NCBI GenBank assembly: GCA_023265875.1
Contig: JAHFSF010000005.1
Coordinates: 1 to 38,910, forward strand
DNA from: Gammaproteobacteria bacterium
GTDB lineage: Bacteria > Pseudomonadota > Gammaproteobacteria > Steroidobacterales > Steroidobacteraceae
Direction: 5' to 3'
DNA: 38,910 bases
A program made the translations under genes and the position numbers. The notes under the pieces were generated by a model. It was not told where the DNA came from. It saw only the letters and a list, made by a program, of their open reading frames with translations, and did not search any database. Shown here one piece after another: positions 11,659 to 33,593 of this stretch; positions within the stretch are counted from its first letter, which is position 1, and every line of letters starts with the position of its first letter.

Positions 11659-11673
11659 GATGCTGTCCGTTGC

Positions 11674-12618
11674 CTAGTTCCGGAGCTGCGACGACCAGTG
11701 GATGTGGACGATCTTCCAGCCGGCTTTCGAAGCGCGCAACACCATCGTTTCGGTGCCCAGGATCGTCACTGGCTTGCCGTCATGCTGCGCCTGCAGCTCG
11801 CTTTCGCTCGCGACCCAGGCAAGCTCCCCGCTGATACGGGCGCTGCGGCGCAACAGCTTCTGGTGCGCGGTCTTCAGGAACTCCGCGTCCTCGCCGGCAT
11901 GATGGCCCAGGTACTCCGCCGCCGAATGTTCACCGCCGCCGGCCTCCAGGATGATGACCTGCGGGTCCAGTTCCGCTGCGGCCGCGTCGAGATCCCCAGC
12001 TGACAGTTCGGCGAAAAAGCGATCCACGGTCGCAACGGCCGCCTGCGCCGGATCCGACACGTCCACCTGCGCGGCATCGGCATGCGCGGGCGTTTCTCCG
12101 TGGCCATGAGAATGGCCGCCACTCGACTCGACCAGTTCGTGGTAGTCGGCCGCTGACATCCCGGGCAACTGCCGGACAAACGCCACCATGCCCCAGATGG
12201 ATTCATCATCCATGCTCTTTCCCCAGGCGGGCATGGCGGTCATCTTGATGCCGTGCTTGATGGTCCAGAACGTGGCCGCGGGATCTTCAATGTCGGATCT
12301 CGTGAGATCCGGCGGCGCCGGATTGAGGCCGATGCTGATCTCAGTGCCGTCCGCGCCGGGTTCGAGGTGACAGTCGGCGCACATCGCGTCATAGTTTCCG
12401 GCGCCGGCCCTGATCAGCGCCTCGCCGTCGAGATCAGGCACGACCACAGACTCCGACCGTGATTCGATCGCGCGGTTGCGGGTGGTCTCCAGCGCCCATG
12501 CGGTGAGCGGCCAATGCGGCTCATCCGCTGCGATGTTGTAGGCGCCTGACCAGATGAACGCACCAGTCGCCACGATCACCAGCGCCAGTGTTGCCAACAA
12601 CCAGATGATCGTCTTCAT
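11674..12618 (-). CDS. Membrane-anchored/exported class I cytochrome c fused through a His-rich linker to an NTF2-like domain
   Basis: MKTIIWLLATLALVIVATGAFIW signal anchor; single heme motif CADCH; linker GGHSHGHGETPAHADAA; C-terminal DPAQAAVATVDRFFAELSAGDLDAAAAELDPQVIILEAGG...WKIVHIHWSSQLRN NTF2-like. Confidence 0.82.
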   Translation of the reverse strand: MKTIIWLLATLALVIVATGAFIWSGAYNIAADEPHWPLTAWALETTRNRAIESRSESVVVPDLDGEALIRAGAGNYDAMCADCHLEPGADGTEISIGLNPAPPDLTRSDIEDPAATFWTIKHGIKMTAMPAWGKSMDDESIWGMVAFVRQLPGMSAADYHELVESSGGHSHGHGETPAHADAAQVDVSDPAQAAVATVDRFFAELSAGDLDAAAAELDPQVIILEAGGGEHSAAEYLGHHAGEDAEFLKTAHQKLLRRSARISGELAWVASESELQAQHDGKPVTILGTETMVLRASKAGWKIVHIHWSSQLRN

Positions 12619-12628
12619 AGGATTTCCC

Positions 12629-14029: not shown

Positions 14030-15441
14030 GGTTGCTCTCCCTGGTCCATGTGCTCGATCTCGTCCACACCGATGGTCGACGCGCCCGCTTCTTCGTCGCC
14101 GGGCAGCGAGCCGCCGACGGCAGCGCGCAACGCAGTCCGGGCGATCCAGTAATCGCGCACGGATTCGAAGTATGCCTGCCAAGCCTCGTATTCATCCCGC
14201 TTCGCCCGGATCAATTCAAATACGCCATCCAGCATGAAATTGACCCGTTCCTGCCGGCGCGCGACCGCGGAGGCGGCGCTTGGCACGAGGCTGTCGCGAT
14301 AGCGATCGGTGATGTCGCGCGCGATCGTCACTCGCTCGATTCCGGTGGAAACCTCGTTTTCCACGTCACGCACGAGGGCATCGCGGCGTGCGCGCGCATC
14401 GAGCAGGCGGGCTTCTGCACGCTCGACTGCGCCCTGCCCCTGATTGAAGAGCGGTAGCTCGAAAATCAATTTCGGTCCGCGCAACTTGCTTCCGTCTGGC
14501 TCGCGTTCGCTTTCGTATCCAGCCTCCACGGATCCCAGCAGCCGCCAGTTTTTTGTGACGCCGAGGGAATCCTCGAGTATCGAAACCTCGTCGCGCACGG
14601 CGGCCAGGTCAAGCCGCTGATTCAAGGCCTGAGGCAGGAGCTTGTCACCGGGCAGCGGCACTTCGGGTGGCGCCGGCAATCGATCGATAGTCTGCCAGGC
14701 CGCGTCGGCCCGCAGCCCCAGCAGCCTGGCGAGGCCCGCCCTGCTGGCCGCGGCGTTGGACTGCGCACGCAGGGCATCGATGCGCGCCCGCGCGGCGGCC
14801 GCAGTCTGCAGGTCCAACTGCAGCCGGTTAATGTTACCGGCTTCGTAATAGCGCTGTGCCAGCGCCGCTTCGTTTTCCGCGGCCTGCGCCACCGCATCGC
14901 GCATCGCGGCGATCTGCAGGGCGCCGAGATGTGCGTACCAGGTCGCCTCGACCTCGCGCGCCAATGCAACCAGATCGGCGGCGACAGTAAGCTCCAGGCG
15001 CCGGAACTCCGCTGTCGACAGGCGACGGCGTGACGACAGCAGCAGCAAGTCGGCAAACGTCGCCGAAATTCCCTGCTTGGTCTGGTCCCGACCACCGTTG
15101 CTCGGATCCAGCCAGGCAAACGACAGCGTCGGATTCGCAATCCGCGCCGCTTCCTGCAGATCAGCGTGGGCGCTGCCGAGTCTTGCGTACAGCCGATGGA
15201 TACCGGGGTTCCGTGTAAACGCGAGTTTAAGCGCGGCGGATAGGGTCATCGGCGTCTCAAATTGAGGCGCGGCCTCGGCGTTGGCCTCGCCCGTGTCCGG
15301 CGCCCATTGCGGCGCGGCACCCACTCTTTCATCGACGCGTTTGGCAACATTGTCCGTCGCACGGTCGATCGGCACGACGGCACAACCGGCACCGGAAACC
15401 AGCGCGGCCGTCAGAACGGCTGCTCGAATCAAGATCTTCAT
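14026..15441 (-). CDS. TolC-family outer membrane efflux-type lipoprotein
   Basis: MKILIRAAVLTAALVSGAGCAVVP...MTLSAALKLAFTRNPGIHRLYARLGSAHADLQEAARIANPTLSFAW...; TolC coiled-coil repeat pattern; ATGA overlap with the multicopper oxidase start. Confidence 0.88.
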   Translation of the reverse strand: MKILIRAAVLTAALVSGAGCAVVPIDRATDNVAKRVDERVGAAPQWAPDTGEANAEAAPQFETPMTLSAALKLAFTRNPGIHRLYARLGSAHADLQEAARIANPTLSFAWLDPSNGGRDQTKQGISATFADLLLLSSRRRLSTAEFRRLELTVAADLVALAREVEATWYAHLGALQIAAMRDAVAQAAENEAALAQRYYEAGNINRLQLDLQTAAAARARIDALRAQSNAAASRAGLARLLGLRADAAWQTIDRLPAPPEVPLPGDKLLPQALNQRLDLAAVRDEVSILEDSLGVTKNWRLLGSVEAGYESEREPDGSKLRGPKLIFELPLFNQGQGAVERAEARLLDARARRDALVRDVENEVSTGIERVTIARDITDRYRDSLVPSAASAVARRQERVNFMLDGVFELIRAKRDEYEAWQAYFESVRDYWIARTALRAAVGGSLPGDEEAGASTIGVDEIEHMDQGEQP

Positions 15442-15537
15442 TTCCGACCCTCGATGCGGGCTCGCGGCTGAGCCCGGAATACGTCAGGCCAGCACAACAT
15501 CGGCTGTTGCGCCGGTTGCCTTGCTCGCGGGTAGCCC

Positions 15538-15939
15538 TCAGGCCGGGGGTCGGAAAGGCGCGCCGATGGCGCGCAGGACGTGGAATGTGTCCAGGAATTC
15601 GGTGCTGACCTGAGAATTCGTCGATTCGCCTCGCATCACCCTTGACTGCAATGTGGCGATCGGTGGTGCGTAGCAGCCGCAACCGCAGGCTTTGCCATCG
15701 CAGCACTTGTGCGTGGGCGCACCAGAAGCTGCGCCCGCCGGCGCCTGATGCTGCATTCCGTCGTGCTGGTGATGTTGTGCGTGCAGGGCGTTGTCCGGCG
15801 CGGCCACCGCCGGTATCACGGCGCCGTTCAATATCAAGGCCAATGCCAGCACTGCGTGAAGGAGATATCGGGTCCGCGGCAGGGGTCTGGGTCGCACGAA
15901 GAAAGACTGCACCGGAGCGCCAATAATCGCAAGACCCAC
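15538..15939 (-). CDS. CopL-like small Cys/His-rich metal-binding protein (start may be GTG at 15897)
   Basis: Signal-like TRYLLHAVLALALILNGAVIPAVAA; HAQHHQHDGMQHQ and HKCCDGKACGCGCYAPP metal-ligand clusters; first gene of the copper operon. Confidence 0.65.
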   Translation of the reverse strand: MGLAIIGAPVQSFFVRPRPLPRTRYLLHAVLALALILNGAVIPAVAAPDNALHAQHHQHDGMQHQAPAGAASGAPTHKCCDGKACGCGCYAPPIATLQSRVMRGESTNSQVSTEFLDTFHVLRAIGAPFRPPA

Positions 15940-15985
15940 GGGGTTGTGCTGGCGTCATCTGCGCCGGGTTGAGACAATCCTGCGC

Positions 15986-17320
15986 ATGCCCTCCGAACGC
16001 GATTCCGTCCTTCATAGCTGGTGCGTGCCGGCCGACTGGAACGCGCCCACCGTGGTCGGCGGGCGGGGCGCGAAGCTTTCACTCGAGGACGGCCGCGAAT
16101 TGCTCGACATGTCGAGCCTGGTCGAGTGCAGCAATCTCGGCCATCAGCATCCGCGCCTGGTCGCCGCGATCCAGAAGCAGGCGGGGGAGCTCAGTTTCGT
16201 CACCGCCGCCTGGGGCGCGGCGCCCCGCAAGGCGCTCGCCGAAAGACTGCTCGAACTCTCCGGCTTCGAGGGCGGGCTCGTATTCTTTACGCTGGGCGGC
16301 GCGGATGCGAATGAGAACGCCGTGCGCATCGCGCGCCAGGCGTCCGGCAAGGGCCACGGACTCGTCATTACGCGCGACCGTTCCTATCACGGCGCCAGCT
16401 ACATGGACATGGCGCTCTCGGGCGACAGCCGCACAGCACACCAGGTCGATGCGAATGCCTGGGGAGTGCGCCATGTCCCGCCACCTTATTCGTACCGCTG
16501 CCCGTTCGGAAGCCAGTCGCCGCATGACTGCGGCCTGAAGGGCGCGGCCGCGGTCGCGGATTGCATCGAAATGGAAGGTGCCGGGCGCGTCGCCGCTGTG
16601 CTGATGGAGCCGAACGCCGGCAGCAACGGCATCGTGGCGCCGGACAGTTTCTGGCCCGCGCTCCGCGATGCGACGCAGGAACGCGACGTGCTCCTGATCG
16701 CCGACGAAGTCATGAGCGCGTTCGGCCGCTGTGGCGAATGGTTCGCCTGGCAGCGCCACGGCGAACAGGGCCGCCCGGACATCATGACGCTCGCCAAGGG
16801 CCTGACCGGCGCGGCCGTGCCGCTCGGCGCCGTCGTCATGAGCGCCGCCATCGCGCGCCGCATCGAGCACGAGATGTTCTACAGCGGCCTGACTTACTGC
16901 GGCCACCCGCTGTCCTGCGCCGCGGGCCTCGCCGCGCTCGACGCCTATCGCGACGAGAAACTGATCGAGCGTTCCCGAACGCTCGGTGCCAGGCTCTTCG
17001 GCGAGCTGCAAGAGCTCCATTCACGCCACCCGGTGATCGGCGAGGTGCGCGGCGGTCACGGCCTGTTCGCGGTCCTCGAGCTTGTCGCCGATCCCGTCAC
17101 GCGCGCGCCGCTTTCGCCCTGGCCGCAGCAATCCGAGCCACAGCGCGCGATGCTGCGCGCTGCGCTCGACGCCGGCGTCTCCTTCGGCTCACGCGGCAAC
17201 CTGCTGATTGTCGCACCGCCACTCGTCATCGAGGAGTCCGACCTCGCCACGGCCATTTCACTGCTCGACCGCCTGCTGGGCCGTTTCTTTCCCGCTCCCG
17301 GCATGGAGAAGAAGCCATGA
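15986..17320 (+). CDS. Class III PLP-dependent aminotransferase (taurine-pyruvate/omega-amino acid type)
   Basis: MPSERDSVLHSWCVPADWNAPTVVGGRGAKLSLEDGRELLDMSSLVECSNLGHQHPRLVAAI...LLIADEVMSAFGRCGEWFAWQ...PDIMTLAKGLTGAAVPLGAV. Confidence 0.88.
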   Translation: MPSERDSVLHSWCVPADWNAPTVVGGRGAKLSLEDGRELLDMSSLVECSNLGHQHPRLVAAIQKQAGELSFVTAAWGAAPRKALAERLLELSGFEGGLVFFTLGGADANENAVRIARQASGKGHGLVITRDRSYHGASYMDMALSGDSRTAHQVDANAWGVRHVPPPYSYRCPFGSQSPHDCGLKGAAAVADCIEMEGAGRVAAVLMEPNAGSNGIVAPDSFWPALRDATQERDVLLIADEVMSAFGRCGEWFAWQRHGEQGRPDIMTLAKGLTGAAVPLGAVVMSAAIARRIEHEMFYSGLTYCGHPLSCAAGLAALDAYRDEKLIERSRTLGARLFGELQELHSRHPVIGEVRGGHGLFAVLELVADPVTRAPLSPWPQQSEPQRAMLRAALDAGVSFGSRGNLLIVAPPLVIEESDLATAISLLDRLLGRFFPAPGMEKKP

Positions 17321-18885
17321 GCTTTCGCCTGACTTACGCAACCATGTTCAATCCTCCGGAGGCGATGCACGAACGCTTCGAGAAAGCGCTCGCAACCATG
17401 CGCGGCCGGCTCGGCAAGACGCACCCGATGTTCATCGACGGCAGGGACGTGGCCGCGGCAGCGACCGAGGAACGCGCGAGCCCGATCGACAGCCAGATCA
17501 AGACCGGCCGCTTCCCGCATGCGAACCCAAAGGAGTTGGATGCCGCGATCGCGGCAGCGCAGCGCGCATTTCCGGCCTGGCGCGACGCGGGCATGCCTGC
17601 GCGTGTTGCGCAGATGCGCAAGGTCGCCGACATCCTCGAGGGGCGCGTCTACGACATCGCTGCGGCGCTCGTGCTCGAGGTCGGCAAGAACCGGCTCGAA
17701 GCGCTCGGCGAGGCGCAGGAGTGCGTGGACTTCTTCCGCGTCTACGCGGATGACTTCGAGTCGCACAAGGGCTACGAGTTCGACCTGCCGAACGACCCCT
17801 CGAACGCTTTTGTCTCGCGCAACAAGAGCGTGATGCGCCCCTACGGCGTCTGGGCCGTGATCGCACCGTTCAATTTCCCGATCGCGCTCGCCGCGGGCCC
17901 GACCGCCGCCGCGCTCGTGACCGGCAACACCGTCGTGGTGAAATGCGCCTCCGACACCCCCTGGGCCGGGCGGCTGCTCGCCGACTGCATCCGCGATGCG
18001 GGCCTGCCGGCCGGTGTTTTCAATTACGTCAATGGCCCGGGCGCCGAGATCGGCGAGCAGCTGGTGCGCGATGCGCGGGTCGCCGGCGTCACGTTCACGG
18101 GATCGGTCGCCGTCGGCCGGGCGATCATGGCCGAGATCGCGGCCGGCCGTTACCCGCGGCCTTACATCGCCGAGATGGGAGGCAAGAACCCCACCATCGT
18201 GACCGAAAACGCGGACCTCGACCGCGCGGCCGCCGGCATCGCGCGCTCGGCCTACGGCATGGGCGGGCAGAAGTGCTCCGCGCTGTCGCGCCTGTACGTG
18301 CACGAGAAAGTCGCCGACCCGCTGCTCGCGAAGATCGAGCAGGAGATCGACAAGATCAGGATCGGCGACCCGACCGAGCGCGCGACGGGCCTCGGTCCGG
18401 TCGTCAACAAGCGCGCGCACGAGAGCTACGCGCGTCACGTCGCCGAGCTCAGGAGCCGCGGCGCCAGGTTCCGGCGCGGCGGCAAGCAGCCGTCGGAAGG
18501 CATGTTCGGGCGCGGTTTTTACGTCGAGCCCGTGCTGGCGGAGGCGGATCCCTCGGATCCGCTCTGGAAGCACGAGATGTTCCTGCCGATTCTGATGGTC
18601 CAGCGCTACCGCGATCGCGACGCCGCGATGCGCCTCGCGAACGACACGGACATGGGACTCACCGCCGGCTTCTACGGCTCGCCCGACGAAGTGAAATGGT
18701 TCCAAGACAATATCGAGGCCGGCGTGACCTACGCGAACCGCGGCGCAGGTGCGACGACGGGCGCCTGGCCGGGTTACCAGCCCTTCGGCGGCTGGAAAGG
18801 TTCGGGTTCTTCCGGCAAGGCGATCGCCTCCGCTTACTACCTGCCGCTCTACCTGCGCGAGCAGTCACGCACCGTGGTCGACTGA
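17317..18885 (+). CDS. NAD(P)-dependent aldehyde dehydrogenase, L-glutamate gamma-semialdehyde (P5C) dehydrogenase-like
   Basis: VIAPFNFPIALAAGPTAAALVTGNTVVVK, GVTFTGSVAVGRAI, EMGGKNPTIV, GQKCSALSRLYV; 522 aa; ATGA overlap with the upstream gene. Confidence 0.9.
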   Translation: MSFRLTYATMFNPPEAMHERFEKALATMRGRLGKTHPMFIDGRDVAAAATEERASPIDSQIKTGRFPHANPKELDAAIAAAQRAFPAWRDAGMPARVAQMRKVADILEGRVYDIAAALVLEVGKNRLEALGEAQECVDFFRVYADDFESHKGYEFDLPNDPSNAFVSRNKSVMRPYGVWAVIAPFNFPIALAAGPTAAALVTGNTVVVKCASDTPWAGRLLADCIRDAGLPAGVFNYVNGPGAEIGEQLVRDARVAGVTFTGSVAVGRAIMAEIAAGRYPRPYIAEMGGKNPTIVTENADLDRAAAGIARSAYGMGGQKCSALSRLYVHEKVADPLLAKIEQEIDKIRIGDPTERATGLGPVVNKRAHESYARHVAELRSRGARFRRGGKQPSEGMFGRGFYVEPVLAEADPSDPLWKHEMFLPILMVQRYRDRDAAMRLANDTDMGLTAGFYGSPDEVKWFQDNIEAGVTYANRGAGATTGAWPGYQPFGGWKGSGSSGKAIASAYYLPLYLREQSRTVVD

Positions 18886-19737
18886 ATGACTGAGTTCCTG
18901 CCGCTCGCGAAGGCGATCGAGAAGCACGTGCCGGACGGCGCATCCATTGCGCTCGAGGGATTCACGCACCTGATTCCATTCGCAGCCGGGCATGAACTGA
19001 TCCGGCAGGGCCGGCGGGATCTGCATTTGATCCGGATGACGCCGGACCTCATCTATGACCAGTTGATCGGCATGGGCGCCGCGCGGCGGCTGACATTCTC
19101 CTGGGGCGGCAATCCCGGCGTCGGTTCGCTGCACCGGCTGCGCGATGCCGTCGAGCAGGCCTGGCCGCGCCCGCTCGAGCTTGACGAGCACAGCCACGCC
19201 GGCATGGCGGCGGCCTATCGCGCAGGGGCCGCGCGATTGCCCTTCGGCGTGCTGCGCGGCTACATCGGCACCGACCTGCCGGCCCACAACCCGCGCATTC
19301 GCGCCGTCACCTGCCCCTACACCGGCGAAGCGCTCGCGACGGTGCCCGCACTCAATCCCGACGTCACGATCCTGCATGCACAGCGCGCGGACCGCCTCGG
19401 CAATGTCGCGATCGAGGGCATCATCGGCGCGCAACGCGAGGCGGGTCTTGCGGCGAAGACGCTGATCGTCACGGTCGAGGAAATCGTCGACGAACTGCCA
19501 CCGGCCATGAACGGCGTGCTGCTGCCGCATTTTGTGGTCGGCGTCGTGTCACCTTGTCCCGGTGGGGCCTGGCCATCTTATGCGCAGGGCCGCTATGGGC
19601 GCGACAATGATTTCTACCTGCGCTGGGACGAGATCGCGCGCGATCGCGCGCGCTTCTCCGCATGGATGGGGCGGCATGTGCTCGGGACCCCCGGCCATCG
19701 CGAATTCCTCGACAGCCTGCGGCAGGGAACGGCATGA
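18886..19737 (+). CDS. CoA-transferase family protein, alpha subunit (GctA/CatI/IpdA-like)
   Basis: PDGASIALEGFTHLIPFAAGHELIRQGRRDLHLIRMTPDLIYDQLIGMGAARRLTFSWGGNPGVGSLHR...; ATG directly follows the ALDH stop (TGAATG). Confidence 0.85.
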   Translation: MTEFLPLAKAIEKHVPDGASIALEGFTHLIPFAAGHELIRQGRRDLHLIRMTPDLIYDQLIGMGAARRLTFSWGGNPGVGSLHRLRDAVEQAWPRPLELDEHSHAGMAAAYRAGAARLPFGVLRGYIGTDLPAHNPRIRAVTCPYTGEALATVPALNPDVTILHAQRADRLGNVAIEGIIGAQREAGLAAKTLIVTVEEIVDELPPAMNGVLLPHFVVGVVSPCPGGAWPSYAQGRYGRDNDFYLRWDEIARDRARFSAWMGRHVLGTPGHREFLDSLRQGTA

Positions 19738-20510
19738 GCGACTACAGCCGGGACGAGATGATGACCGTCGCTGCGGCGCGCCTGCTGTGGGACGGCTGCA
19801 TCACTTTCGTCGGCATCGGCCTGCCGAGCGCCGCCTGCAACCTTGCCCGGTTGAGCCACGCGCCGGGGCTCGTGCTGATCTATGAATCCGGCACGATCAA
19901 CACCAGGCCGACCGTACTGCCACTGTCGATCGGCGACGGCGAACTGGCCGAGACCGCCGCCTGCGTCGTGCCGCTGCCCGACATCTTCAGCGATTACCTG
20001 CAGGCCGGTCGCATCGATGTCGGTTTTCTCGGCGCCGCGCAGATCGATCGTCACGGCAACCTGAACAGCACCGTCATCGGTCCCTACGGGAAGCCGCGCA
20101 CGCGCCTGCCTGGCGCCGGTGGGGCGACCGAGATTGCGGCGCAGGCGAAGCAGGTCTTCATCGTCATGAAAGCCTCGCCCAGGAGTTTCGTCCCCAGGCT
20201 CGACTTCCAGACCAGCGGCGGGCATTTTGCGGGTCGCGCGGCGAGCGGGGCGCGCGGCGGCGGTCCCGCCGTGGTCGTGACCGATGTCGGGATCCTGAAA
20301 CCGCAGGCGGCGAGCGGCGAACTCGTACTCACCGTACTCTATCCGGGCATTCCAGCCGAGGAAGCGCGCGCCGCGATCGGGTGGCCGCTCACGATCGCAC
20401 AGGAACTGGAATCCATGCCTGCGCCCACCGCCGCTGAACTTGCCGTGCTGCGCGCGCTCGAAGCCCGCACCGCGGCCGCCCATCGCCAACCAGTGAGATT
20501 GCCAACATGA
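19734..20510 (+). CDS. CoA-transferase family protein, beta subunit (GctB/CatJ/IpdB-like)
   Basis: MMTVAAARLLWDGCITFVGIGLPSAACNLARLSHAPGLVLIYESGTINTRPTVLPLSIGDGELAETA...DVGFLGAAQIDRHGNLNSTVIG; ATGA overlap. Confidence 0.86.
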   Translation: MSDYSRDEMMTVAAARLLWDGCITFVGIGLPSAACNLARLSHAPGLVLIYESGTINTRPTVLPLSIGDGELAETAACVVPLPDIFSDYLQAGRIDVGFLGAAQIDRHGNLNSTVIGPYGKPRTRLPGAGGATEIAAQAKQVFIVMKASPRSFVPRLDFQTSGGHFAGRAASGARGGGPAVVVTDVGILKPQAASGELVLTVLYPGIPAEEARAAIGWPLTIAQELESMPAPTAAELAVLRALEARTAAAHRQPVRLPT

Positions 20511-21856
20511 ATGCACGCATACAGACGGGACACCAAATGAAGAATCCACACATCAAGACCGAACTGCCGGGGCCGAAGGCGCGTGCGATGGTCGCTCGCG
20601 ACACGCTGGTCGCGTCGCCTTCCTATCCGCGCGACTATCCGTTCGTGATTTCCCATGCCCGCGGCACCGAAGCCTGGGACGTCGACGGCAATCGTTTCCT
20701 AGACTTCGCCGCGGGCATCGCGGTCTGCGCCACTGGTCATGCGCACCCGCAGGTCGTCGCCGCCGTGCGCGAGGCGGCGGGCCAGTTCCTGCATATCTCG
20801 AGCGATTACTGGCATGAGGGAATGACGGCGCTGGCGGAGCGGCTTTCGACAATCGTGCCGCTCAGCGAGCCCGGCATGAGTTTTTTCTGCCAGTCGGGCA
20901 CGGAAGCGGTCGAAGGTGCCTTGAAGCTCGCGCGCTACGTCACCGGCCGGCAGCGCATCATCGCGTTCCTCGGCAGCTTCCATGGCCGCACGATGGGCTC
21001 GCTGGCGCTGACCTCGAGCAAGTACACGCAGCAGGCTGGATTCGCTCCGGTCATGCCGGGCGTCACCCATGTGCCCTACCCGAACACCTATCGGCCGCTG
21101 TTCGCGGGCGCCGACCAGGGCCGCGCCGTGCTCGATTACATCCGCATGCTGTTCGAGCGCAATTTGCCGGCAGCCGAGGTCGCGGCGATCGTGGTGGAGC
21201 CCCTGCAGGGCGAAGGCGGCTACCTGGTGCCGCCGGACGGGTTCCTCGCCGGCCTCCGCCAAATCTGCGACGAGCACGGAATCCTGCTCGTGTTCGACGA
21301 AGTGCAGTCCGGAATCGGTCGTACCGGGCGCATGTTCGCCTGTGAGCACTCCGGGGTCAGGCCTGACATCATGACGCTGGCCAAGGGCCTCGGCTCCGGC
21401 ATGCCGATCGGCGCCGTCGTCGCCAGGCGCAGCCTCATGCAGAAGTGGAAGCGCGGCGCGCACGGCAACACCTTCGGCGGCAACCCGCTCTGTTGCGCGG
21501 CAGCGAATGTCACGCTCGACCTCGTGCGCGAGCAGTACATGGCGAATGCCGCGCGCGTCGGCGCGCACTTCATGCGGCGGCTCGCCGAGCTCAAGCCGGC
21601 ATACCCCTGCATCGGCGACCTCCGCGGGCGCGGCCTGATGATCGGCGTGGAAATGATCGAGCGCGATGGTTCGCCCGCCCGCCCGCTGGTGGAGCGGCTG
21701 CTGCATCGCGGCTACCAGAATGGGCTGTTGCTGCTGTCCTGCGGCGTCAGCACGCTGCGCTTCATGCCGCCGCTCTGCGTGAGCGAGGCAGAGGTGGACG
21801 AGGCGATGGGCTATCTGCGGCAAAGTCTCGACGAGGCGCTGGCGGGCGCCGCGTGA
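20507..21856 (+). CDS. Class III PLP-dependent aminotransferase (4-aminobutyrate/ornithine aminotransferase type)
   Basis: KTELPGPKARAMVARDTLVASPSYPRDYPFVISHARGTEAWDVDGNRFLDFAAGIAVCATGHAHPQVV...LLVFDEVQSGIGRTGRMFACEH...DIMTLAKGLGSGMPIGAVV. Confidence 0.92.
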   Translation: MNARIQTGHQMKNPHIKTELPGPKARAMVARDTLVASPSYPRDYPFVISHARGTEAWDVDGNRFLDFAAGIAVCATGHAHPQVVAAVREAAGQFLHISSDYWHEGMTALAERLSTIVPLSEPGMSFFCQSGTEAVEGALKLARYVTGRQRIIAFLGSFHGRTMGSLALTSSKYTQQAGFAPVMPGVTHVPYPNTYRPLFAGADQGRAVLDYIRMLFERNLPAAEVAAIVVEPLQGEGGYLVPPDGFLAGLRQICDEHGILLVFDEVQSGIGRTGRMFACEHSGVRPDIMTLAKGLGSGMPIGAVVARRSLMQKWKRGAHGNTFGGNPLCCAAANVTLDLVREQYMANAARVGAHFMRRLAELKPAYPCIGDLRGRGLMIGVEMIERDGSPARPLVERLLHRGYQNGLLLLSCGVSTLRFMPPLCVSEAEVDEAMGYLRQSLDEALAGAA

Positions 21857-24381
21857 GGCGCGCCGGCTGCGCCCTGTTCATTGCGTCGGCGCTGCTGTGG
21901 GCGGCCGGCGCCGCTGCCCAGCGTGAACCGGTACTGAAACAGGTTGAGCTGCCGCACAGCTATTACTGGCGCGAACTCTACCTGCCCCAGCTGACGACCG
22001 GCCCCTCCGCTGCGGCATTCATGCCTGCTGGCGACGAACTGATTTACAGCATGGCGGGTTCCCTGTGGCGCCAGCGGATCGGATCGGATGAGGCTGTCGA
22101 GCTCACCCATGCCGACGCGGCCTATGATTACCAGCCCGATGTGGCGGCGGACGGCGGCAGCGTCGTTTTCACGCGTTACGACGGCCGCTCGATGGAACTC
22201 TGGCGGCTTGATTTCGCGACCGGAAGGGAACGGGCATTAACCCGCAATGGCGGCGTGAATGTCGAGCCGAGGCTGTCGCCCGACGGCCGGCGCATCGTCT
22301 GGGTGTCCACGGCCGGCACGGGTCATTTCAACCTGATGATCGCTGATCTTGGCCGCGGTGAGCTCGCGAACCAGCGCTTCCTGGTGGCGCCACGTCAGAG
22401 CAGCATCGATCGCTACTACTACTCTGCGCACGATCACGCCATCAATCCATCCTGGTCACCGGACGGCAACCGCGTCTACTACGTCGGCAATGCCGAAGTT
22501 GCCTGGGGCAGTGGCGACATCCGCTGGGTGTCCGCGGCCGCAGTGGACCAGAGCCACGAGCCCGGGATCGTGCATCGGGAAGAAACGGCCTGGGCTGCAA
22601 GGCCGGAGGTAGCGCCGGACGGCCGGCGGATTCTCTATTCGAGCTTTCACGGCAGGCAGCGATACCAGCTCTGGCTCACGACCGTGGACGGCGCTGCCCC
22701 GCTGCCGCTCACCTTCGGCGATTTCGACCGGCGCAACGCACGTTGGTCGCCGGGCGGAGCACGCATTGCTTACATCAGCAACGAGCGTGGCAATACCGCT
22801 CTGTTTGTCCAGGAATTCATCGGCGGTACCCGCACCGAAATCGCCGCCAAGACGCGCCATTACCTGCGCGTACCGGCGTCGCTCTTGCTCGACATACGAG
22901 ACGCTGAAGGCCAGCGCGTTCCCGCGCGGGTGATGGTGCTTGGCAGCGACCGTCGCTGGCATGCGCCTGCGGACGCTTGGATGCACGGCGACGATGGGTA
23001 CGACCGCGCGCTGTATCCCAGCGAGCCCCATTACTTTCATTGCGCCTCGCCTTGCGAACTCGAGCTGCCCGCCGGCGCCGCGTCACTCAGCGTGCAGCAC
23101 GGCTTTCGCCACCTGCCATGGCGCGAAGTCGTCGACCTGGCTCCGAATGCCCGCCGCGAAATACGGATCGAACTGGCCGGCAACCCGTTGCCGGTGGCGT
23201 TCGGGCGCCACGTGAGCGCCGATCTGCACGTCCACATGAACTACGGCGGTCATTACCGCAACACGCCGGAACGCCTGCTGGCCCAGGCCCGGGCCGAGGA
23301 TCTTGACGTCGTCTACAATCTGATCGTCAACAAGGAGGAGCGCATTCCGGATGTCGCCGAGTTCGGCGCGGCGACGGCCCCGGCCGGAAATGCGGGCATG
23401 TTGCTGCAGGCGCAGGAGTTTCACACCAGCCTCTGGGGTCACCTCGGCCTGCTGAACCTGTCGGATCATCTGTTGCTGCCGGACTTCACCGCCTACCGAC
23501 ACACCGCGTTTGCAAGCCCGTATCCGCACAATGGCGCCGTCGCCGACCTCGCGCATGCGCAGGGCGCGCTGGTCGGCTATGTCCATCCCCTCGCTGCCGA
23601 GATCGTGCCGGCCAGGGAGCGCTCGCTGAGCTACGAGCTTCCCGCCGACGTCGCGCACGGCAAGGTGGACTACCTCGAAGTCGTCGGCTTCTCCGATCAT
23701 CGGCTGACCGCGGATGTCTGGTACCGGCTGCTCAATCTCGGCTACCGGCTGCCGGCTGGCGCCGGGACTGACGCGATGGCCAACTACGCATCGTTGCGCG
23801 GGCCCGTCGGCGTCAATCGCGTGTTCCTCGATACCGACGGCGAGCGCACGCCAGCCGCGCTTGCCGCGGCACTGAAGGGCGGGCGGACATTCGTCAGCAA
23901 CGGTCCGTTGCTCGGTCTCGAGTTCGCCGGCCAGCGCCCCGGTGGCGTGTTGCGGGATGCACGGGGTCCCATGCCTTACCGTGTGGCGCTGCGCTCACCC
24001 GTTGCAGTAGACCATCTCGAAATCGTACACAACGGCAGAATACTCAAGACCTTCGAGCTCACCGGCGAGCGGCAGAGCTTCGACGAGAGCGGCGAATTGA
24101 CACTGCCGGGCGGCGGCTGGCTATTGCTGCGCGCCTGGAACGATCACGCCGATCCGCTGGTATTCGATCTTTTCCCTTATGCGACGACCAGCCCGATTTA
24201 CTTGGAGCTGCCGGGTGGCCCGGACAGTGTGGCGGAAGATGCTGCATATTTCGTGGCCTGGATGAACCGTGTCATCGAGGCGGCGACGGCCAATGGCGAT
24301 TACAACGACGAACGCGAACGCCGCACGACCATTGAGTACCTGCGGTGGGCGCGCGATCAATACCTCGAGCGGAGCCGGTGA
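21853..24381 (+). CDS. Exported TolB-like beta-propeller protein with C-terminal CehA/McbA-type (PHP-like) metallohydrolase domain
   Basis: GTG start; VRRAGCALFIASALLWAAGAAAQ signal; repeated xxSPDGxxIxxxS propeller blades; DLHVHMNYGGHYRNTPERLLAQARAEDLDVVYNLIVNKEERIPDV, EVVGFSDH, AGTDAM. Confidence 0.8.
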   Translation: MRRAGCALFIASALLWAAGAAAQREPVLKQVELPHSYYWRELYLPQLTTGPSAAAFMPAGDELIYSMAGSLWRQRIGSDEAVELTHADAAYDYQPDVAADGGSVVFTRYDGRSMELWRLDFATGRERALTRNGGVNVEPRLSPDGRRIVWVSTAGTGHFNLMIADLGRGELANQRFLVAPRQSSIDRYYYSAHDHAINPSWSPDGNRVYYVGNAEVAWGSGDIRWVSAAAVDQSHEPGIVHREETAWAARPEVAPDGRRILYSSFHGRQRYQLWLTTVDGAAPLPLTFGDFDRRNARWSPGGARIAYISNERGNTALFVQEFIGGTRTEIAAKTRHYLRVPASLLLDIRDAEGQRVPARVMVLGSDRRWHAPADAWMHGDDGYDRALYPSEPHYFHCASPCELELPAGAASLSVQHGFRHLPWREVVDLAPNARREIRIELAGNPLPVAFGRHVSADLHVHMNYGGHYRNTPERLLAQARAEDLDVVYNLIVNKEERIPDVAEFGAATAPAGNAGMLLQAQEFHTSLWGHLGLLNLSDHLLLPDFTAYRHTAFASPYPHNGAVADLAHAQGALVGYVHPLAAEIVPARERSLSYELPADVAHGKVDYLEVVGFSDHRLTADVWYRLLNLGYRLPAGAGTDAMANYASLRGPVGVNRVFLDTDGERTPAALAAALKGGRTFVSNGPLLGLEFAGQRPGGVLRDARGPMPYRVALRSPVAVDHLEIVHNGRILKTFELTGERQSFDESGELTLPGGGWLLLRAWNDHADPLVFDLFPYATTSPIYLELPGGPDSVAEDAAYFVAWMNRVIEAATANGDYNDERERRTTIEYLRWARDQYLERSR

Positions 24382-24392
24382 AAGAGCCAGCC

Positions 24393-26390
24393 ATGAGGCG
24401 GATCTGCCTCGCATTGATCGTGTGCGCACTGCCACTATCTGCGCTCTCCGACGACAGGCGTTTCGACATCGACGACCTGCTCCGCATCGCCGATCTCACG
24501 GAACCGGCGTTCTCGCCGGATGGCGAATTCCTCGTCTACACCGTCTCGACGAATGACCTCGACAAGGACGAGCCACGGTCAGAAATCTGGCGCGTGCGCT
24601 GGGATGGCAACGATCGCCGCCGGTTGACGCAGACGCCCGCTGGCAGCGCGTGGCACGCCGAGTGGAGCCCCGACGGACAACGGATCGCGTTCCTGTCCGA
24701 CCGCGGCGGCGAGGATGCGACGACGCAGGTCTGGGTGATGCCGGCCGCCGGCGGCGAGGCCGAGAAATTCACGGACTTCCCCGGCGGTGTCCTCGACTAT
24801 ACCTGGGCGCCGGATGGCCGCCGGCTTGCCATCATCGCGCGCGACCCGGAGCGGCCCGCGGGAGCCGCGAAACCGCCGAAGCCGGCGCCGATTGTCATCG
24901 ATCGCTACCAGTTCGAGGAGGACTTCATCGGCTGGCTGACGGAACGCCGCCAGCATCTCTATCTGTTCGAGTTCGAGGGCCGCAAGATGACGCCGCTGAC
25001 CGCGGGCGCGCATGACGAATACCTGCCCTCCTGGTCCCCGGACGGAAAGCAGGTCGCCTACGTGACCAGGCGCGGCGCGGATCCGGACCGCCACCGGAAC
25101 TGGGACATCTACCTCGTCGAGCCGCGCGCCGGAGCCGGGGAGCGCCCGCTCACCCGCTTCACCGGCGCCGATCTCGATCCGTACTGGGAGTCGCGGCCCG
25201 ACTGGAGCGCCGACAGCCGGCGCATCGTCTATCTGCAGGGTGGCGAGGACCGCCTGGGCGAGTACGCGCCTTCCCAACTGGCCATCATCGACGTCCAGTC
25301 CGGCGCGACGACCCTGCCTGCCGCAATTGATCGCTCCTTCACCCGGCCGCGTTTCACCCCGGATGGCAAATCGGTGCTGGCGCTGATCGAGCACAGCCGG
25401 GTAACCTGGCTGTCGCGCATCGACCTTGTGAACGGCAGGATCACGGCGCTGACTTCCGGTGCGCGCTTTGACTTCGATTTCGCGGTCGCGCCGAATGGCC
25501 GCGTTGCCGTGCTCGGCGGCGATGATCAGCATCCGCACGAAATTTCCGCTGTTGAGCGGCGCGGCCTGCGCGCCCTGGCCGACCACAATGAGTTCCTGCA
25601 GCAACGCCGCCTTGCGCCGGTCGAGCCGATCGAGTTCGACAGCGCCGACGGCACGCGTATCGACGGGTTTCTCGTGAAGCCGCTCGATTACCAGCCGGGA
25701 CGCCGCTATCCGACGATCCTCAGGCTCCACGGCGGCCCGGTTTACCAGTTCAGCCATGAATTCATGGCGGACTGGCAGGTTTTTGCCGCGCAGGGTTACG
25801 CCGTCCTGGCCGCGAATCCGCGCGGCGGCTCCGGCCGCGGCCTCGAATTCGCAACCGCGATCTACGCCGACTGGGGCAACAAGGATGTGGCCGACGTGCT
25901 GGCTGCGGTAGATCATGCCGTCGCGCTCGGCATCGCCGACCCGGAACGCCTGGGAGTCGGCGGCCGCAGCTACGGCGGCATGCTGACCAACTACGTGATC
26001 GCGCGCGATGCCCGGTTCAAGGCTGCCATCAGCGGCGCCGGCGAGTCCAACATCATCGGGATGTACGGCACCGACCAGTACATCGATGAATACGAGCATG
26101 AGCTCGGCAAGCCCTGGGTCGACCGGGCCGCCTGGGACCGGGTCAGCTTTCCGTTCCTGCACGCCGACCGGATCACGACGCCGACGCTGTTCTATTGCGA
26201 GGAACGCGACGTCAACGTGCCCTGCATCGGCAGCCAGCAGATGTACCAGGCGCTGCGCTCACTCGGCGTGCCGACGCAACTCGTGGTCTATCCGGGCGAG
26301 TGGCATCCGGTCACCGTGCCGAGCTACCTGCGCGACCGCATGCAGCGGCAGCTGGACTGGTACGGCCGTTACTTGAGCAGCCGCCCGTAG
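24393..26390 (+). CDS. S9-family (prolyl oligopeptidase) exported serine peptidase
   Basis: Signal MRRICLALIVCALPLSALS; TolB/DPP-IV-like propeller; catalytic GGRSYGGML and C-terminal YPGEWHP. GTG at 24378 (GTGA overlap with the upstream stop) is an alternative start. Confidence 0.92.
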   Translation: MRRICLALIVCALPLSALSDDRRFDIDDLLRIADLTEPAFSPDGEFLVYTVSTNDLDKDEPRSEIWRVRWDGNDRRRLTQTPAGSAWHAEWSPDGQRIAFLSDRGGEDATTQVWVMPAAGGEAEKFTDFPGGVLDYTWAPDGRRLAIIARDPERPAGAAKPPKPAPIVIDRYQFEEDFIGWLTERRQHLYLFEFEGRKMTPLTAGAHDEYLPSWSPDGKQVAYVTRRGADPDRHRNWDIYLVEPRAGAGERPLTRFTGADLDPYWESRPDWSADSRRIVYLQGGEDRLGEYAPSQLAIIDVQSGATTLPAAIDRSFTRPRFTPDGKSVLALIEHSRVTWLSRIDLVNGRITALTSGARFDFDFAVAPNGRVAVLGGDDQHPHEISAVERRGLRALADHNEFLQQRRLAPVEPIEFDSADGTRIDGFLVKPLDYQPGRRYPTILRLHGGPVYQFSHEFMADWQVFAAQGYAVLAANPRGGSGRGLEFATAIYADWGNKDVADVLAAVDHAVALGIADPERLGVGGRSYGGMLTNYVIARDARFKAAISGAGESNIIGMYGTDQYIDEYEHELGKPWVDRAAWDRVSFPFLHADRITTPTLFYCEERDVNVPCIGSQQMYQALRSLGVPTQLVVYPGEWHPVTVPSYLRDRMQRQLDWYGRYLSSRP

Positions 26391-27514
26391 TGGGACAAAA
26401 GCGCCTGCAGGTCCGCGTGCGGCAGCGCCTTCGCGTAGCGGCCTTCGGTGCCTTCCATGTCGCGCGCCGCGACCATCGCGTTGACGATCGCTTCCTCGGT
26501 CGCCTGCACGGTGGCTGCGAACAGCGGGCTGAGCTCACCGTTCGGGATGAACTCGGCGAGCGCGAGCGGTGCCCCGCGCATCGCCGCGGCATTGGCGGTC
26601 GAAAACGCGATGAAGATGTCACCCGAGCCATTGTCGGCCGTCGAACCCGTGCGCGCGAGGCCGAGCGCCGCGCGTTTCGCAATGCGCTTCAACTGGTGCG
26701 GCAGCAACGGCGCGTCCGTCGCAACCACGATGATGATCGAACCGCTCTCGGAGGCCTTCGGGTCGTTTTCGCTGTAGACACGATGTTCGCGCAGATGCTG
26801 GCCGACCGGGACGCCCGCGATGCGCAGGCCATCGCGCAGCCCGTGGTTGGCCTGGACCAGCACGCCGACGATATGTTCGCGGTTGCCAAAGGCCACGCGC
26901 CTGGACGCGGTGCCGATTCCGCACTTGAACTCATAACAGATGGTGCCGGTCCCGGCGCCGACGTTGCCCTCTTCGACCGGCCCCGCTGCTGCCTTTTCCA
27001 GCGCTTCGTCGACATGCCGGGCGCGCACGTGAAAACCATTGATGTCGTTCAGGTACCCGTCCCAGGTCTCGGCCACGACGGCCGACGACCACCAGTAGCC
27101 GGTGGCATCCGGTCGGCCCTGGCGCACGCGCCAGGCGATCGCGGCATCGTGCACGACGCCGACACTGTGCGTATTCGTGAGCAGCACCGGGCCTTCGAGT
27201 TCTCCCGATTCCTCCAGCCAGGTCGTGCCGGTCATCTCGCCCGCGCCGTTCAGCGCGAACCAAGCGCCGAAGGCGTGCAGAGCAAGGCTGTCACGGCCGC
27301 GCGGCAGGATGGCCGTGACACCCGTCCGCACCTTGCGCCCGCCATCGAGGTCCTCCATCAGGGTCACCTGTCCGACCGTCACGCCGGCCACATCGGTGAT
27401 CGCATTCAGCGGTCCCGGCACGCCGTCGAACGGTACGCCGAGTTCGCGCGCCCGCGGCCCGGCTTCGCAGGCCAGGGTCACAAGCGTCAATATCAATGTC
27501 AGGATGTAGCGCAT
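26369..27514 (-). CDS. P1-family (DmpA/BapA-type) autoprocessing aminopeptidase, exported
   Basis: MRYILTLILTLVTLACEAGPRARELGVPFDGVPGPLNAITDVAGVTVGQVTL; GNVGAGTGTICYEFKCGIGTASR; autocleavage-type region ASESGSIIIVVATDAPLLPHQ. Confidence 0.92.
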   Translation of the reverse strand: MRYILTLILTLVTLACEAGPRARELGVPFDGVPGPLNAITDVAGVTVGQVTLMEDLDGGRKVRTGVTAILPRGRDSLALHAFGAWFALNGAGEMTGTTWLEESGELEGPVLLTNTHSVGVVHDAAIAWRVRQGRPDATGYWWSSAVVAETWDGYLNDINGFHVRARHVDEALEKAAAGPVEEGNVGAGTGTICYEFKCGIGTASRRVAFGNREHIVGVLVQANHGLRDGLRIAGVPVGQHLREHRVYSENDPKASESGSIIIVVATDAPLLPHQLKRIAKRAALGLARTGSTADNGSGDIFIAFSTANAAAMRGAPLALAEFIPNGELSPLFAATVQATEEAIVNAMVAARDMEGTEGRYAKALPHADLQALLSHYGRLLK

Positions 27515-27553
27515 GGCGGGGATTTTCATGGGCCGTATTGACTCGGCACCGAC

Positions 27554-27700
27554 ATGCTAGCGCAGGATCGCACCCTCGTGCTGGCCCGCGGCTGGACCAA
27601 TGGCCTGCCCTGCTTGCATTCGGCACTGACCCAGGCCCTTGATTACCGCAGCTACAATGTGGAAGTCGCCGATTCCCAGTCGGTCGGAGTCCCAAAATGA
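27554..27700 (+). CDS. Possible 48-aa small ORF upstream of and ATGA-overlapping the amidohydrolase
   Basis: ATG at 27554 to TGA at 27698-27700: MLAQDRTLVLARGWTNGLPCLHSALTQALDYRSYNVEVADSQSVGVPK; below the ORF-track length cutoff; no clear Shine-Dalgarno seen. Confidence 0.35.
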   Translation: MLAQDRTLVLARGWTNGLPCLHSALTQALDYRSYNVEVADSQSVGVPK

Positions 27701-29004
27701 ACGTGCGGCAGATCCTCCACTCCTGGTTGCTCGCCATCACGATCCTGCTCACCGCGCCGCAGGCTGTTGCCGAAACGGTGATCGTGCGCGCCGGCCGCCT
27801 GCTCGACGTCGAGAGTGGTGGTTATCTGCAGGACCAGGCGATCCGCATCGAGGACGGTCGCGTCATATCGGTCGGACCGTACCGCGCGACATCTCCCGCC
27901 GATGCGCACCTGATCGACTGGTCGGCCAACACCGTGCTGCCGGGACTGATCGATCTGCACACGCACCTGATCGGCCCCAACTCCTCGAGCAATGTGCTCG
28001 CACCGCTCCTGACCTCCGAATCACAGGATGTGCTGCTCGGCGTGACCCACGCGCGCGCAACGCTTGCGGCGGGTTTCACGACTGTGCGCGATGTAGGAAC
28101 CTACCGGGCCTTCACGGACGTTGCGCTACGCGATGCCATCGCCGCTGGTGTCGTCCCCGGGCCACGCATGTTCGTCGCGGGCGCCTATATCACGGTCAGC
28201 AAAGGCGGTGGGGAGCTGACCGGAATGGCGCCGGATGTCGTCGTGCCCGCCGACATGCGTCGCGGTGTTGCCAATTCCGCAAACGAGGTTCGTCAGCGCG
28301 TGCGCGAGCTGCTGGCTGGAGGCGCCAATTTCATCAAGGTCATCGCAACCGGAGCCGTATTCACATCCGGTACCAAGCCGTCCGCCCCCGAATTCACCGA
28401 GGCGGAATTGCGGGCTGCGGTCGAGGAAGCGGCGAATGCCGGCACTTATGTGATCGCCCATGCCCACAGCGCCGAGGGCATCAAGCGCGCGGTGCGCGCC
28501 GGCGTTCACTCGATCGAACATGCCTCCTACCTCGACGACGAAGGTATCGCGCTGCTGCTCGAGCACGGTACCTGGCTGGTCGAGGACGTCTACAACGGCG
28601 ATTACACCGAAGAAGTCGGCCGCCGCCAGGGCTGGTCCGGGGAAATCATGCGCAAGAACCGCGAGACGACCGATATCCAGCGCGTCGGTTTCGGAAAGGC
28701 CGTACGGGCCGGCGTGAAAATCGGCTTCGGCACCGATGCCGGCATATTTCCGCACGGCGAAAATGCCCGGCAGTTCGCGTACATGGTGCGGTTCGGGCTG
28801 ACGCCGCTTGGCGCGATCCGTGCAGCGACGATCGATGCGGCCCGGTGCCTTGGCCAGGAGCGTGAACTCGGCTCGATCGCGCCCGGAAAATTCGCCGACC
28901 TGATCGCCGTGGACGGCGATCCGCTCAAGGACATTGAGACGTTGCGCAGGATCGCCGGCGTCATCAAGGAAGGCAGGCTGTTCCACGCGGAGGACGACCG
29001 ATGA
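27697..29004 (+). CDS. Exported metal-dependent amidohydrolase (imidazolonepropionase-like / Xaa-Arg/Lys dipeptidase-like)
   Basis: Signal MNVRQILHSWLLAITILLTAPQAVAE; NTVLPGLIDLHTHLIG, VIAHAHSAEGIKRAVRAGVHSIEHASYL, GTDAGIFPHGENARQF. Confidence 0.87.
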   Translation: MNVRQILHSWLLAITILLTAPQAVAETVIVRAGRLLDVESGGYLQDQAIRIEDGRVISVGPYRATSPADAHLIDWSANTVLPGLIDLHTHLIGPNSSSNVLAPLLTSESQDVLLGVTHARATLAAGFTTVRDVGTYRAFTDVALRDAIAAGVVPGPRMFVAGAYITVSKGGGELTGMAPDVVVPADMRRGVANSANEVRQRVRELLAGGANFIKVIATGAVFTSGTKPSAPEFTEAELRAAVEEAANAGTYVIAHAHSAEGIKRAVRAGVHSIEHASYLDDEGIALLLEHGTWLVEDVYNGDYTEEVGRRQGWSGEIMRKNRETTDIQRVGFGKAVRAGVKIGFGTDAGIFPHGENARQFAYMVRFGLTPLGAIRAATIDAARCLGQERELGSIAPGKFADLIAVDGDPLKDIETLRRIAGVIKEGRLFHAEDDR

Positions 29005-30320
29005 ACCAGCGCGAGCTCGGATTCTGGATGTGCACGGCTCTCGTGGTCGGCAACATGATCGGCATGGGCATCTTCGTGCTGCCCGCCTCGCTTGCGCCGT
29101 TCGGCTTCAACGCCTTCCTCGGCTGGGCCGCGACGGTCCTCGGCTGCGTGCTGCTCGCGGTGGTCTTCATGATTCTCGTGCGGCGGATGCCGGAAGCCGA
29201 CGGCCCATTCGCCTACATTCGCGCGACGCTCGGCGAGACGGTGGCGTTCGCCGCATTATGGTGCTACTGGATCTCCATCTGGATCGCCAATGCGGCCCTC
29301 GCGGTCGGCGCCGCGGGCTACATCACGGGCCTGGTCCCGTCGCTCGGGCGCATTCCGCCGGCCATCATCGCCGCGAGCCTCGTGTGGCTCTTCGTACTGG
29401 TCAACCTGTTCGGGGCGCGCTCCGGCGGCCGTATGCAGGTACTGACGGTCGCGCTCAAACTCGTGCCGCTCGGCCTCGTGATCCTGCTCGGCCTGTGGAC
29501 GCTCGTCGTCGATCCCATGGCCTACGCGGCGAATGTCCCGACCGTGCCAATCAACCTGCATGACACGATGGCCGCCTCGACGATTGCGCTGTTCGCAATG
29601 CTCGGCATCGAATCCGCGACAGTGCCGGCCGGCCGCGTGCAGAATCCCGAGAAGACGATTCCACGGGCAACGATCGTCGGCACGCTGCTGACGGCCGGTG
29701 TCTACATTGCCGTCACAGCCATTTCGACGCTGCTGGTGCCACAGGAGACGCTCGCAGCTTCGAATGCCCCTTTCGTCGACGTGCTCGACCGGCTGCTGGG
29801 CGTTGGCAATGGGCGATGGCTCGCCCTGTTCGTCGTCATCAGCGGCCTCGGCTGCATCAATGGGTGGACACTCGTGGTCGCTGAATTGACGTGCACGCTC
29901 GCCTCGCGGCAATTGCTGCCGCCGGTCTTCGCAAAACGCAATCGCCCCGGCGCACCCGCGCCCGCCCTGCTGCTGGTCGGTCTGCTCAGCACGGGCGTCG
30001 CGCTGCTGAACTACCGGGAGTCGCTGGTCAAGGGTTTCACCTTCCTCAGCATCATCACGACCGCCGCCAATCTGCCGGTGTACCTGTGCTGCTCGCTGGG
30101 TCTCCTGTGGCTATGGCAGCGCGATCGTGCCGGCCTGCCGCGCCTCACCTGGCTGTACGGCGCCGGCGGCCTGGCATTCTCGATCTACGCTTTCATCGGC
30201 GTCGGCACCGAGCCCTTCTTGTGGGCGCTCGCCCTCGCCTCCGTCGGCGTGCCGGTCTATTTCTGGATGCGCCATCGCCATCCACCGGCTGCGGTCGCTG
30301 CGTCCACGCTGCCGCCGTGA
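29001..30320 (+). CDS. APC-superfamily amino acid permease (AdiC/PotE-like)
   Basis: MNQRELGFWMCTALVVGNMIGMGIFVLPASLAPFGFNAFLGW...; about 12 hydrophobic segments; ATGA overlap with the amidohydrolase. Confidence 0.9.
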   Translation: MNQRELGFWMCTALVVGNMIGMGIFVLPASLAPFGFNAFLGWAATVLGCVLLAVVFMILVRRMPEADGPFAYIRATLGETVAFAALWCYWISIWIANAALAVGAAGYITGLVPSLGRIPPAIIAASLVWLFVLVNLFGARSGGRMQVLTVALKLVPLGLVILLGLWTLVVDPMAYAANVPTVPINLHDTMAASTIALFAMLGIESATVPAGRVQNPEKTIPRATIVGTLLTAGVYIAVTAISTLLVPQETLAASNAPFVDVLDRLLGVGNGRWLALFVVISGLGCINGWTLVVAELTCTLASRQLLPPVFAKRNRPGAPAPALLLVGLLSTGVALLNYRESLVKGFTFLSIITTAANLPVYLCCSLGLLWLWQRDRAGLPRLTWLYGAGGLAFSIYAFIGVGTEPFLWALALASVGVPVYFWMRHRHPPAAVAASTLPP

Positions 30321-30342
30321 GCCAGGAATCGAGGCTGAGCGG

Positions 30343-33569: not shown

Positions 33570-33593
33570 GTTGCGACGCCCACCGCACGCGTT

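Follow-up and report, generated by a model that had tools for sequence, protein, structure and literature searches.

Known routes and the present locus

3-Oxoadipate is known so far mainly as the end product of aromatic-ring breakdown, and when genomes are annotated, the lower-branch proteins of the beta-ketoadipate pathway (PcaI/PcaJ, PcaF and PcaR) are taken as a sign that aromatic compounds are degraded. Here an operon is described that would make the same compound from an amino acid. It lies in a stretch of 38,910 nucleotides (hereafter the window) from a metagenome-assembled genome (MAG) of a Steroidobacteraceae bacterium (Gammaproteobacteria; GenBank assembly GCA_023265875.1, contig JAHFSF010000005.1, positions 1 to 38,910), and its core encodes two aminotransferases (AT1 and AT2), an aldehyde dehydrogenase (ALDH) and subunits A and B of a CoA-transferase. 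It is proposed, with a confidence just short of even, that the cluster is a diamino acid catabolic operon, in which two deaminations and one oxidation lead to 3-oxoadipate and beta-lysine is the substrate that best fits all parts.

The resemblance to the beta-ketoadipate pathway lies at its lower end, since CoA-transferase, PcaF and PcaR occur together in related loci of the Dyella/Lysobacter type. However, the upper part of the operon consists of two aminotransferases and ALDH instead of ring-cleavage enzymes, and the operon of the window has neither PcaF nor PcaR nearby. The known degradation of beta-lysine runs via N6-acetyl-beta-lysine (the Barker pathway of Pseudomonas and the yod/kamA operon of Bacillus) and shares with the operon a class III aminotransferase, a two-subunit CoA-transferase and beta-keto acid chemistry, whereas the operon lacks lysine 2,3-aminomutase, N-acetyltransferase and deacetylase and has instead a second aminotransferase and ALDH, which would make a dicarboxylate. 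The DavT-DavD (5-aminovalerate/glutarate) and GabT-GabD (GABA) systems likewise pair a class III aminotransferase with a semialdehyde dehydrogenase; the operon differs in its two aminotransferase subfamilies, in an ALDH that resembles pyrroline-5-carboxylate (P5C) dehydrogenase and not succinate-semialdehyde dehydrogenase, and in a CoA-transferase of 3-oxoadipate type. The enzymes nearest to AT2 and ALDH are those of ornithine catabolism (ornithine aminotransferase and P5C dehydrogenase), yet ALDH scores under the P5C dehydrogenase cut-offs, and AT1 and the CoA-transferase are locked into the operon. In the open-access literature searched, no published description of the operon was found, and nothing on beta-lysine with 3-oxoadipate or on 3-aminoadipate with lysine.

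A conserved five-gene core

Around 50 loci were gathered by a scan with CoA-transferase A and by genome searches with AT1, and they were compared in two gammaproteobacterial groups, the Dyella/Rhodanobacter/Lysobacter/Pseudoxanthomonas type (16 loci mapped) and the window's own family, as well as in Gemmatimonadota. Gene families were assigned by Pfam and NCBIfam models and the nearest solved structures by PDB matches. In all 43 loci that hold both aminotransferases, those of AT1, ALDH, CoA-transferase A, B and AT2 that are present keep their strand and order, which is far beyond chance. The initial annotation described seven genes with overlapping junctions as one operon, combining a class III aminotransferase, a semialdehyde dehydrogenase and a glutaconate-type CoA-transferase; re-reading of the sequence confirmed every gene and junction (Table 1), the family models agree with these assignments, and co-location proved to be conserved. 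As a unit, though, seven genes are too narrow a frame. The conserved unit is the five-gene catabolic core AT1-ALDH-A-B-AT2, while the following exported TolB-propeller/CehA metallohydrolase (CehA) and S9 peptidase are accessory, and the cluster continues past 26390 with an S58 aminopeptidase on the opposite strand, a Cc2672-like Arg/Lys dipeptidase and an AdiC-like transporter.

These uptake and hydrolysis genes are exchangeable companions of the core, frequent yet variable among the loci. The S9 peptidase is present in 16 of 16 Dyella/Lysobacter-type loci, in 2 of 19 own-family loci and in none of the five loci of the window clade and other MAGs, so that the window's closest relatives lack it; CehA stands close to the core in 13 of 16 Dyella/Lysobacter-type and 11 of 19 own-family loci. 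The distribution of AT1 is narrow, since a search of 398 further genomes from the window's phylum at a strict cut-off returned the window's own genome alone. It was found in 21 of 246 genomes of the order sample, all in the window's own family (own genome included), and in 6 of 298 Gemmatimonadota genomes.

The probable 3-oxoadipate endpoint

CoA-transferase A is 66-69% identical to a gene of Rhizobium/Sinorhizobium pca clusters and 61% identical to one of a Vibrio hydroquinone cluster. The Rhizobium relative (L028) is accompanied by PcaF, a PcaR-type regulator, an intradiol dioxygenase subunit, a PcaB-like lyase and an alpha/beta hydrolase, and the Vibrio relative (L060) by hydroquinone 1,2-dioxygenase PnpD together with an alcohol dehydrogenase of the Fe type seen in maleylacetate reductase. 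Both contexts yield 3-oxoadipate, and for this reason the enzyme is grouped with 3-oxoadipate CoA-transferases and is predicted to be one. The YESG motif of subunit B keeps its glutamate in all aligned copies. An assignment by the classical PcaIJ/ScoAB models was rejected, as the subunits score far under cut-off (21 and 38 bits).

The strongest evidence comes from the Dyella/Lysobacter-type loci, where PcaF (3-oxoadipyl-CoA thiolase) and a PcaR-type regulator stand near AT1 and divergent to it in 16 of 16; in Dyella L007 they score 627 bits (cut-off 597) and 304 bits (cut-off 285), respectively. The earlier statement that no regulator is encoded nearby thus holds for the window and not for these relatives. 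PcaF exceeds its cut-off in 23 of 24 operon genomes. When match positions were compared with the locus ranges, each of the 15 Dyella/Rhodanobacter/Lysobacter-type genomes searched proved to have its sole PcaF above cut-off at the operon. The intradiol ring-cleavage dioxygenase (PF00775) is absent from 20 of the 24 operon genomes. Among the 15 Dyella/Lysobacter-type genomes 12 lack it, so that 3-oxoadipyl-CoA is probably not ring-derived there, and an aromatic upper pathway was rejected as its supplier in these genomes. This argues strongly that their 3-oxoadipyl-CoA derives from the amine operon. Taking these lines together, 3-oxoadipate is probably the product of the pathway.

A PcaR-type regulator is divergent to AT1 also in some own-family and Gemmatimonadota loci, and even in loci that have no CoA-transferase (L139, L142). 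PcaR exceeds its cut-off in L007 and L142; in G000 it is below cut-off and away from the operon. L142 carries near PcaR a propionate/acetate-CoA ligase-like gene (L142:15344-17260), which might supply CoA activation.

The substrate

AT2 passes the ornithine/lysine omega-aminotransferase model PRK05769 (Table 1), and its best PDB match is 7vno (E 8e-105), a 454-aa aminotransferase of P. horikoshii that is presumed here to be PH1423, an ornithine delta-aminotransferase. For ALDH the best match is the P5C dehydrogenase 3qan (E 6e-84); it fails the P5C dehydrogenase equivalog TIGR01237, and its active-site Cys and Glu are present in the motifs GGQKCSALSR and AEMGGKNP. The carrier is closest to AdiC (3ncy, E 8e-50). 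PH1423 accepts L/D-Orn and L/D-Lys, and 5-aminovalerate weakly (PMC9986279), and Cc2672 cleaves Xaa-Arg/Lys dipeptides (PMC11342369). The likeness of AT2, ALDH, carrier and dipeptidase to these proteins points to a basic amino acid.

AT1 and the S58 aminopeptidase point to a beta-amino acid. The PLP lysine motif of AT1 (TLAKGLTG or TVAKGLTG) is found in all aligned copies, and its nearest plasmid relatives (37-42%), in Deinococcus and Natrialba, adjoin a CoA-acylating methylmalonate-semialdehyde dehydrogenase, a neighbourhood that suggests a beta-alanine/beta-aminoisobutyrate context. AT1 may therefore be a beta-amino-acid:2-oxoacid aminotransferase. The S58 aminopeptidase matches best DmpA (1b65, E 1e-107) and BapA (3n2w, E 1e-83), members of the family to which the known beta-aminopeptidases belong. 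With the 3-oxoadipate end, these relatives imply a beta-amino acid, and two aminotransferases of different type beside a P5C dehydrogenase-like ALDH are more easily reconciled with a diamino acid than with a mono-amine.

Beta-lysine (3,6-diaminohexanoate) is a natural compound that is both basic and a beta-amino acid. Two transaminations and one oxidation would convert it to exactly 3-oxoadipate, which makes it the best-fitting substrate, and a slightly less than even chance is given to this assignment. A suggestive, not strong, pointer in the same direction is a Rhizobium plasmid on which a relative of ALDH (40.5%) adjoins a class III aminotransferase and a KamA-family gene, with an annotated lysine 2,3-aminomutase further along.

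The initial annotation proposed degradation of 5-aminovalerate via glutarate or of beta-alanine type, and cadaverine is considered here along with these. The enzyme classes are identical, PH1423 has its weak activity on 5-aminovalerate and glutaconate CoA-transferase shares the CoA-transferase fold; however, one aminotransferase would suffice for 5-aminovalerate, the CoA-transferase relatives are located in 3-oxoadipate clusters, and PcaF and PcaR at the Dyella/Lysobacter-type clusters would be without a role, which makes these pathways highly improbable. The general scheme of exported hydrolysis, deamination, oxidation and CoA activation survives as a model, and the arrangement of exported hydrolases with catabolic genes recurs across genomes.

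Two features of related loci touch on the substrate as well. In the own-family locus L143 a pair of CrtO-like FAD oxidoreductases is inserted between AT1 and ALDH along with a GcvT/TMAO-demethylase-like gene (L143:10964-15349), and a glycine betaine monooxygenase-like Rieske oxygenase is placed between the S58 aminopeptidase and the dipeptidase in 13 of 16 Dyella/Lysobacter-type loci (L007:18612-19865). Given these genes, N-methylated precursors are possible substrates.

Proposed pathway

Onto the observed gene content, gene order, conservation, catalytic motifs and genomic link to PcaF/PcaR the following order of steps may be placed. Exported hydrolases would release beta-lysine and the AdiC-like carrier would import it. 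AT2 would then remove the terminal amine to give 3-amino-6-oxohexanoate, which on chemical grounds is expected to cyclise to a P5C-like five-membered pyrroline, a form that suits a P5C dehydrogenase-like ALDH. This enzyme would oxidise the pyrroline to 3-aminoadipate, AT1 would turn the beta-amine into the 3-oxo group of 3-oxoadipate, and CoA-transferase A/B would form 3-oxoadipyl-CoA. Finally, a thiolase would cleave the latter to succinyl-CoA and acetyl-CoA, namely PcaF by the operon in Dyella/Lysobacter-type genomes and PaaJ elsewhere in the genome in the relatives of the window.

A wider concept, put forward more tentatively, is that the beta-ketoadipate pathway can be entered without aromatic precursors: exported beta-aminopeptidase and dipeptidase would free beta-lysine for import, double transamination and oxidation would proceed without N-acetylation, control would be of PcaR type, and the route would serve mainly for scavenging in bacteria that lack a dedicated mutase to make free beta-lysine. 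If an amino acid is the source of 3-oxoadipate here, aromatic catabolism would be wrongly attributed to many Dyella, Rhodanobacter, Lysobacter and lake bacteria. Beta-lysine occurs in antibiotics, in archaeal osmolytes and in modified EF-P, and if the proposal is true this non-protein amino acid would have a dedicated scavenging pathway, testable in culturable strains.

Conflicting evidence and alternative routes

Several observations weigh against the beta-lysine pathway. A dedicated lysine 2,3-aminomutase was not found in the operon genomes tested: the KamA-family matches typed there are mostly EpmB, two weak AblA-like matches (G004 and Lysobacter L097) are far under the model cut-off, and the cut-off of TIGR03820 (lysine 2,3-aminomutase) is passed by none of the 246 order-sample genomes. 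In-house synthesis of beta-lysine by KamA is not supported by these results; beta-lysine would need an external source, and the exported hydrolases and the carrier are compatible with scavenging, which they permit and do not prove. Within the own family the operon is even anti-correlated with KamA/EpmB-family genes, which among the matches listed occur in 6 of 20 genomes with the operon versus 33 of 43 without it (Fisher p 0.0007, uncorrected for kinship, by which the counts are confounded); kinship alone possibly accounts for this.

The window's own family is also uneven in the lower steps. The window MAG (77% complete) has no PcaF above cut-off, and of the 20 own-family operon genomes, a set from which this MAG is excluded, 7 have no PcaF match at E 1e-150. 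Co-occurrence of AT1 and PcaF is weak there (13/20) because the PcaF-like thiolase of the window's relatives appears to be PaaJ of a phenylacetate cluster, with PaaA upstream in L157. Moreover, 6 of the 20 genomes keep AT1-ALDH-AT2 and have no CoA-transferase of the operon type anywhere. These six would be accounted for by an alpha-lysine route, in which AT2 converts L-lysine to 2-aminoadipate semialdehyde, ALDH yields 2-aminoadipate and AT1 2-oxoadipate, a 2-oxoacid dehydrogenase forms glutaryl-CoA, and the CoA-transferase serves a salvage or side step. Such a route also explains the missing aminomutase, and AT2, ALDH, the carrier and the Arg/Lys dipeptidase all suit lysine, but it leaves PcaF, PcaR and a 3-oxoadipate-type CoA-transferase without a role and does not agree with the beta-amino-acid contexts of AT1 relatives; it is considered unlikely.

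The Gemmatimonadota copies pose a further difficulty for beta-lysine, as their ALDH has lost the catalytic Cys or the whole gene and a dimethylargininase (DDAH)-like gene has been gained. The motif GQKCSALSR is replaced by GQRPDAPSY in L041, GQKHSSLSH in L107 and L152, and GQRPSAPSH in L109 and L153, and the gene is missing in L073 and L154, states that represent a stepwise loss of one pathway step. The DDAH-like gene, which scores below family cut-offs, stands beside AT1 in 5 of 5 Gemmatimonadota loci mapped and is divergent to or near AT1 in L041 (6239-7063), L073, L152, L153, L154 and L155. It hints at arginine-type substrates, and the operon substrate may differ in this phylum.

This gene favours an ornithine/arginine route, where peptides and (methyl)arginine are converted to ornithine, AT2 and ALDH produce glutamate, and AT1 and the CoA-transferase act on a separate beta-amino acid. 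The matches of AT2 and ALDH to ornithine aminotransferase and P5C dehydrogenase, the Cc2672-type dipeptidase and the AdiC-like carrier are in line with it. The single strict order in 43 of 43 loci speaks instead for one pathway, PcaF and PcaR again have no role, and ALDH is lost or dead in Gemmatimonadota, precisely where DDAH occurs. The ornithine/arginine route is therefore judged improbable, more so than the alpha-lysine one.

Layout of the window

The S9 peptidase has an equally good alternative ATG start at 24393, directly ahead of the signal peptide. Neither a consensus sigma-70 promoter nor a convincing terminator was found in 15400-30700, a result that is uninformative in this GC-rich region.

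Table 1. Genes and junctions of the operon and its continuation in the window.
Feature	Position	Strand	Evidence or remark
AT1, class III aminotransferase, PRK06062-like, Toa/omega-aminotransferase side	15986..17320	+	Pfam Aminotran_3; NF004718 389 bits (cut-off 472)
AT1/ALDH junction	AT1 end 17320, ALDH start 17317	+	ATGA overlap
ALDH, L-glutamate-semialdehyde/P5C dehydrogenase-like	17317..18885	+	PRK03137 391 bits, TIGR01237 357 bits (cut-off 660), both below cut-off
ALDH/CoA-transferase A junction	18885/18886	+	TGAATG, abutting
CoA-transferase subunit A, GctA/PcaI-type	18886..19737	+	Pfam CoA_trans
CoA-transferase A/B junction	A end 19737, B start 19734	+	ATGA overlap
CoA-transferase subunit B, GctB/PcaJ-type	19734..20510	+	Pfam CoA_trans
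CoA-transferase B/AT2 junction	B end 20510, AT2 start 20507	+	ATGA overlap
AT2, ornithine/lysine omega-aminotransferase-like, PRK05769 family	20507..21856	+	NF004426 569 bits (cut-off 552)
AT2/TolB-CehA junction	AT2 end 21856, TolB-CehA start 21853	+	GTGA overlap
Exported TolB-propeller + CehA/McbA metallohydrolase, accessory	21853..24381	+	NF038032 216 bits (cut-off 80)
TolB-CehA/S9 peptidase junction	CehA end 24381, S9 start 24378	+	GTGA overlap
Exported S9 prolyl-oligopeptidase-family peptidase, accessory	24378..26390	+	Pfam Peptidase_S9
Exported S58/P1 aminopeptidase, DmpA/BapA (beta-aminopeptidase) family	26369..27529	-	Pfam S58 389 bits
Exported amidohydrolase, Cc2672-type Xaa-Arg/Lys dipeptidase	27697..29004	+	best PDB match Cc2672 3mtw, E 4e-99
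APC-family basic amino acid transporter, AdiC-like	29001..30320	+	TIGR00905 246 bits (cut-off 409); start overlaps dipeptidase end by ATGA (29001/29004)

Upstream of the operon, at 9382-15939 on the minus strand, lies an unrelated copper-resistance block composed of a P-type ATPase with a YHS domain, a cytochrome c and SnoaL-like protein, a multicopper oxidase and an outer membrane efflux protein; locus L004, from the same genus, likewise has metal-efflux genes ahead of its operon. The genes mnmE and mnmG are often a neighbour pair. In the window GidA/MnmG is encoded at 387-2249 and MnmE, YidC and DnaA at 32241-37698, with about 30 kb, including the operon, between them.

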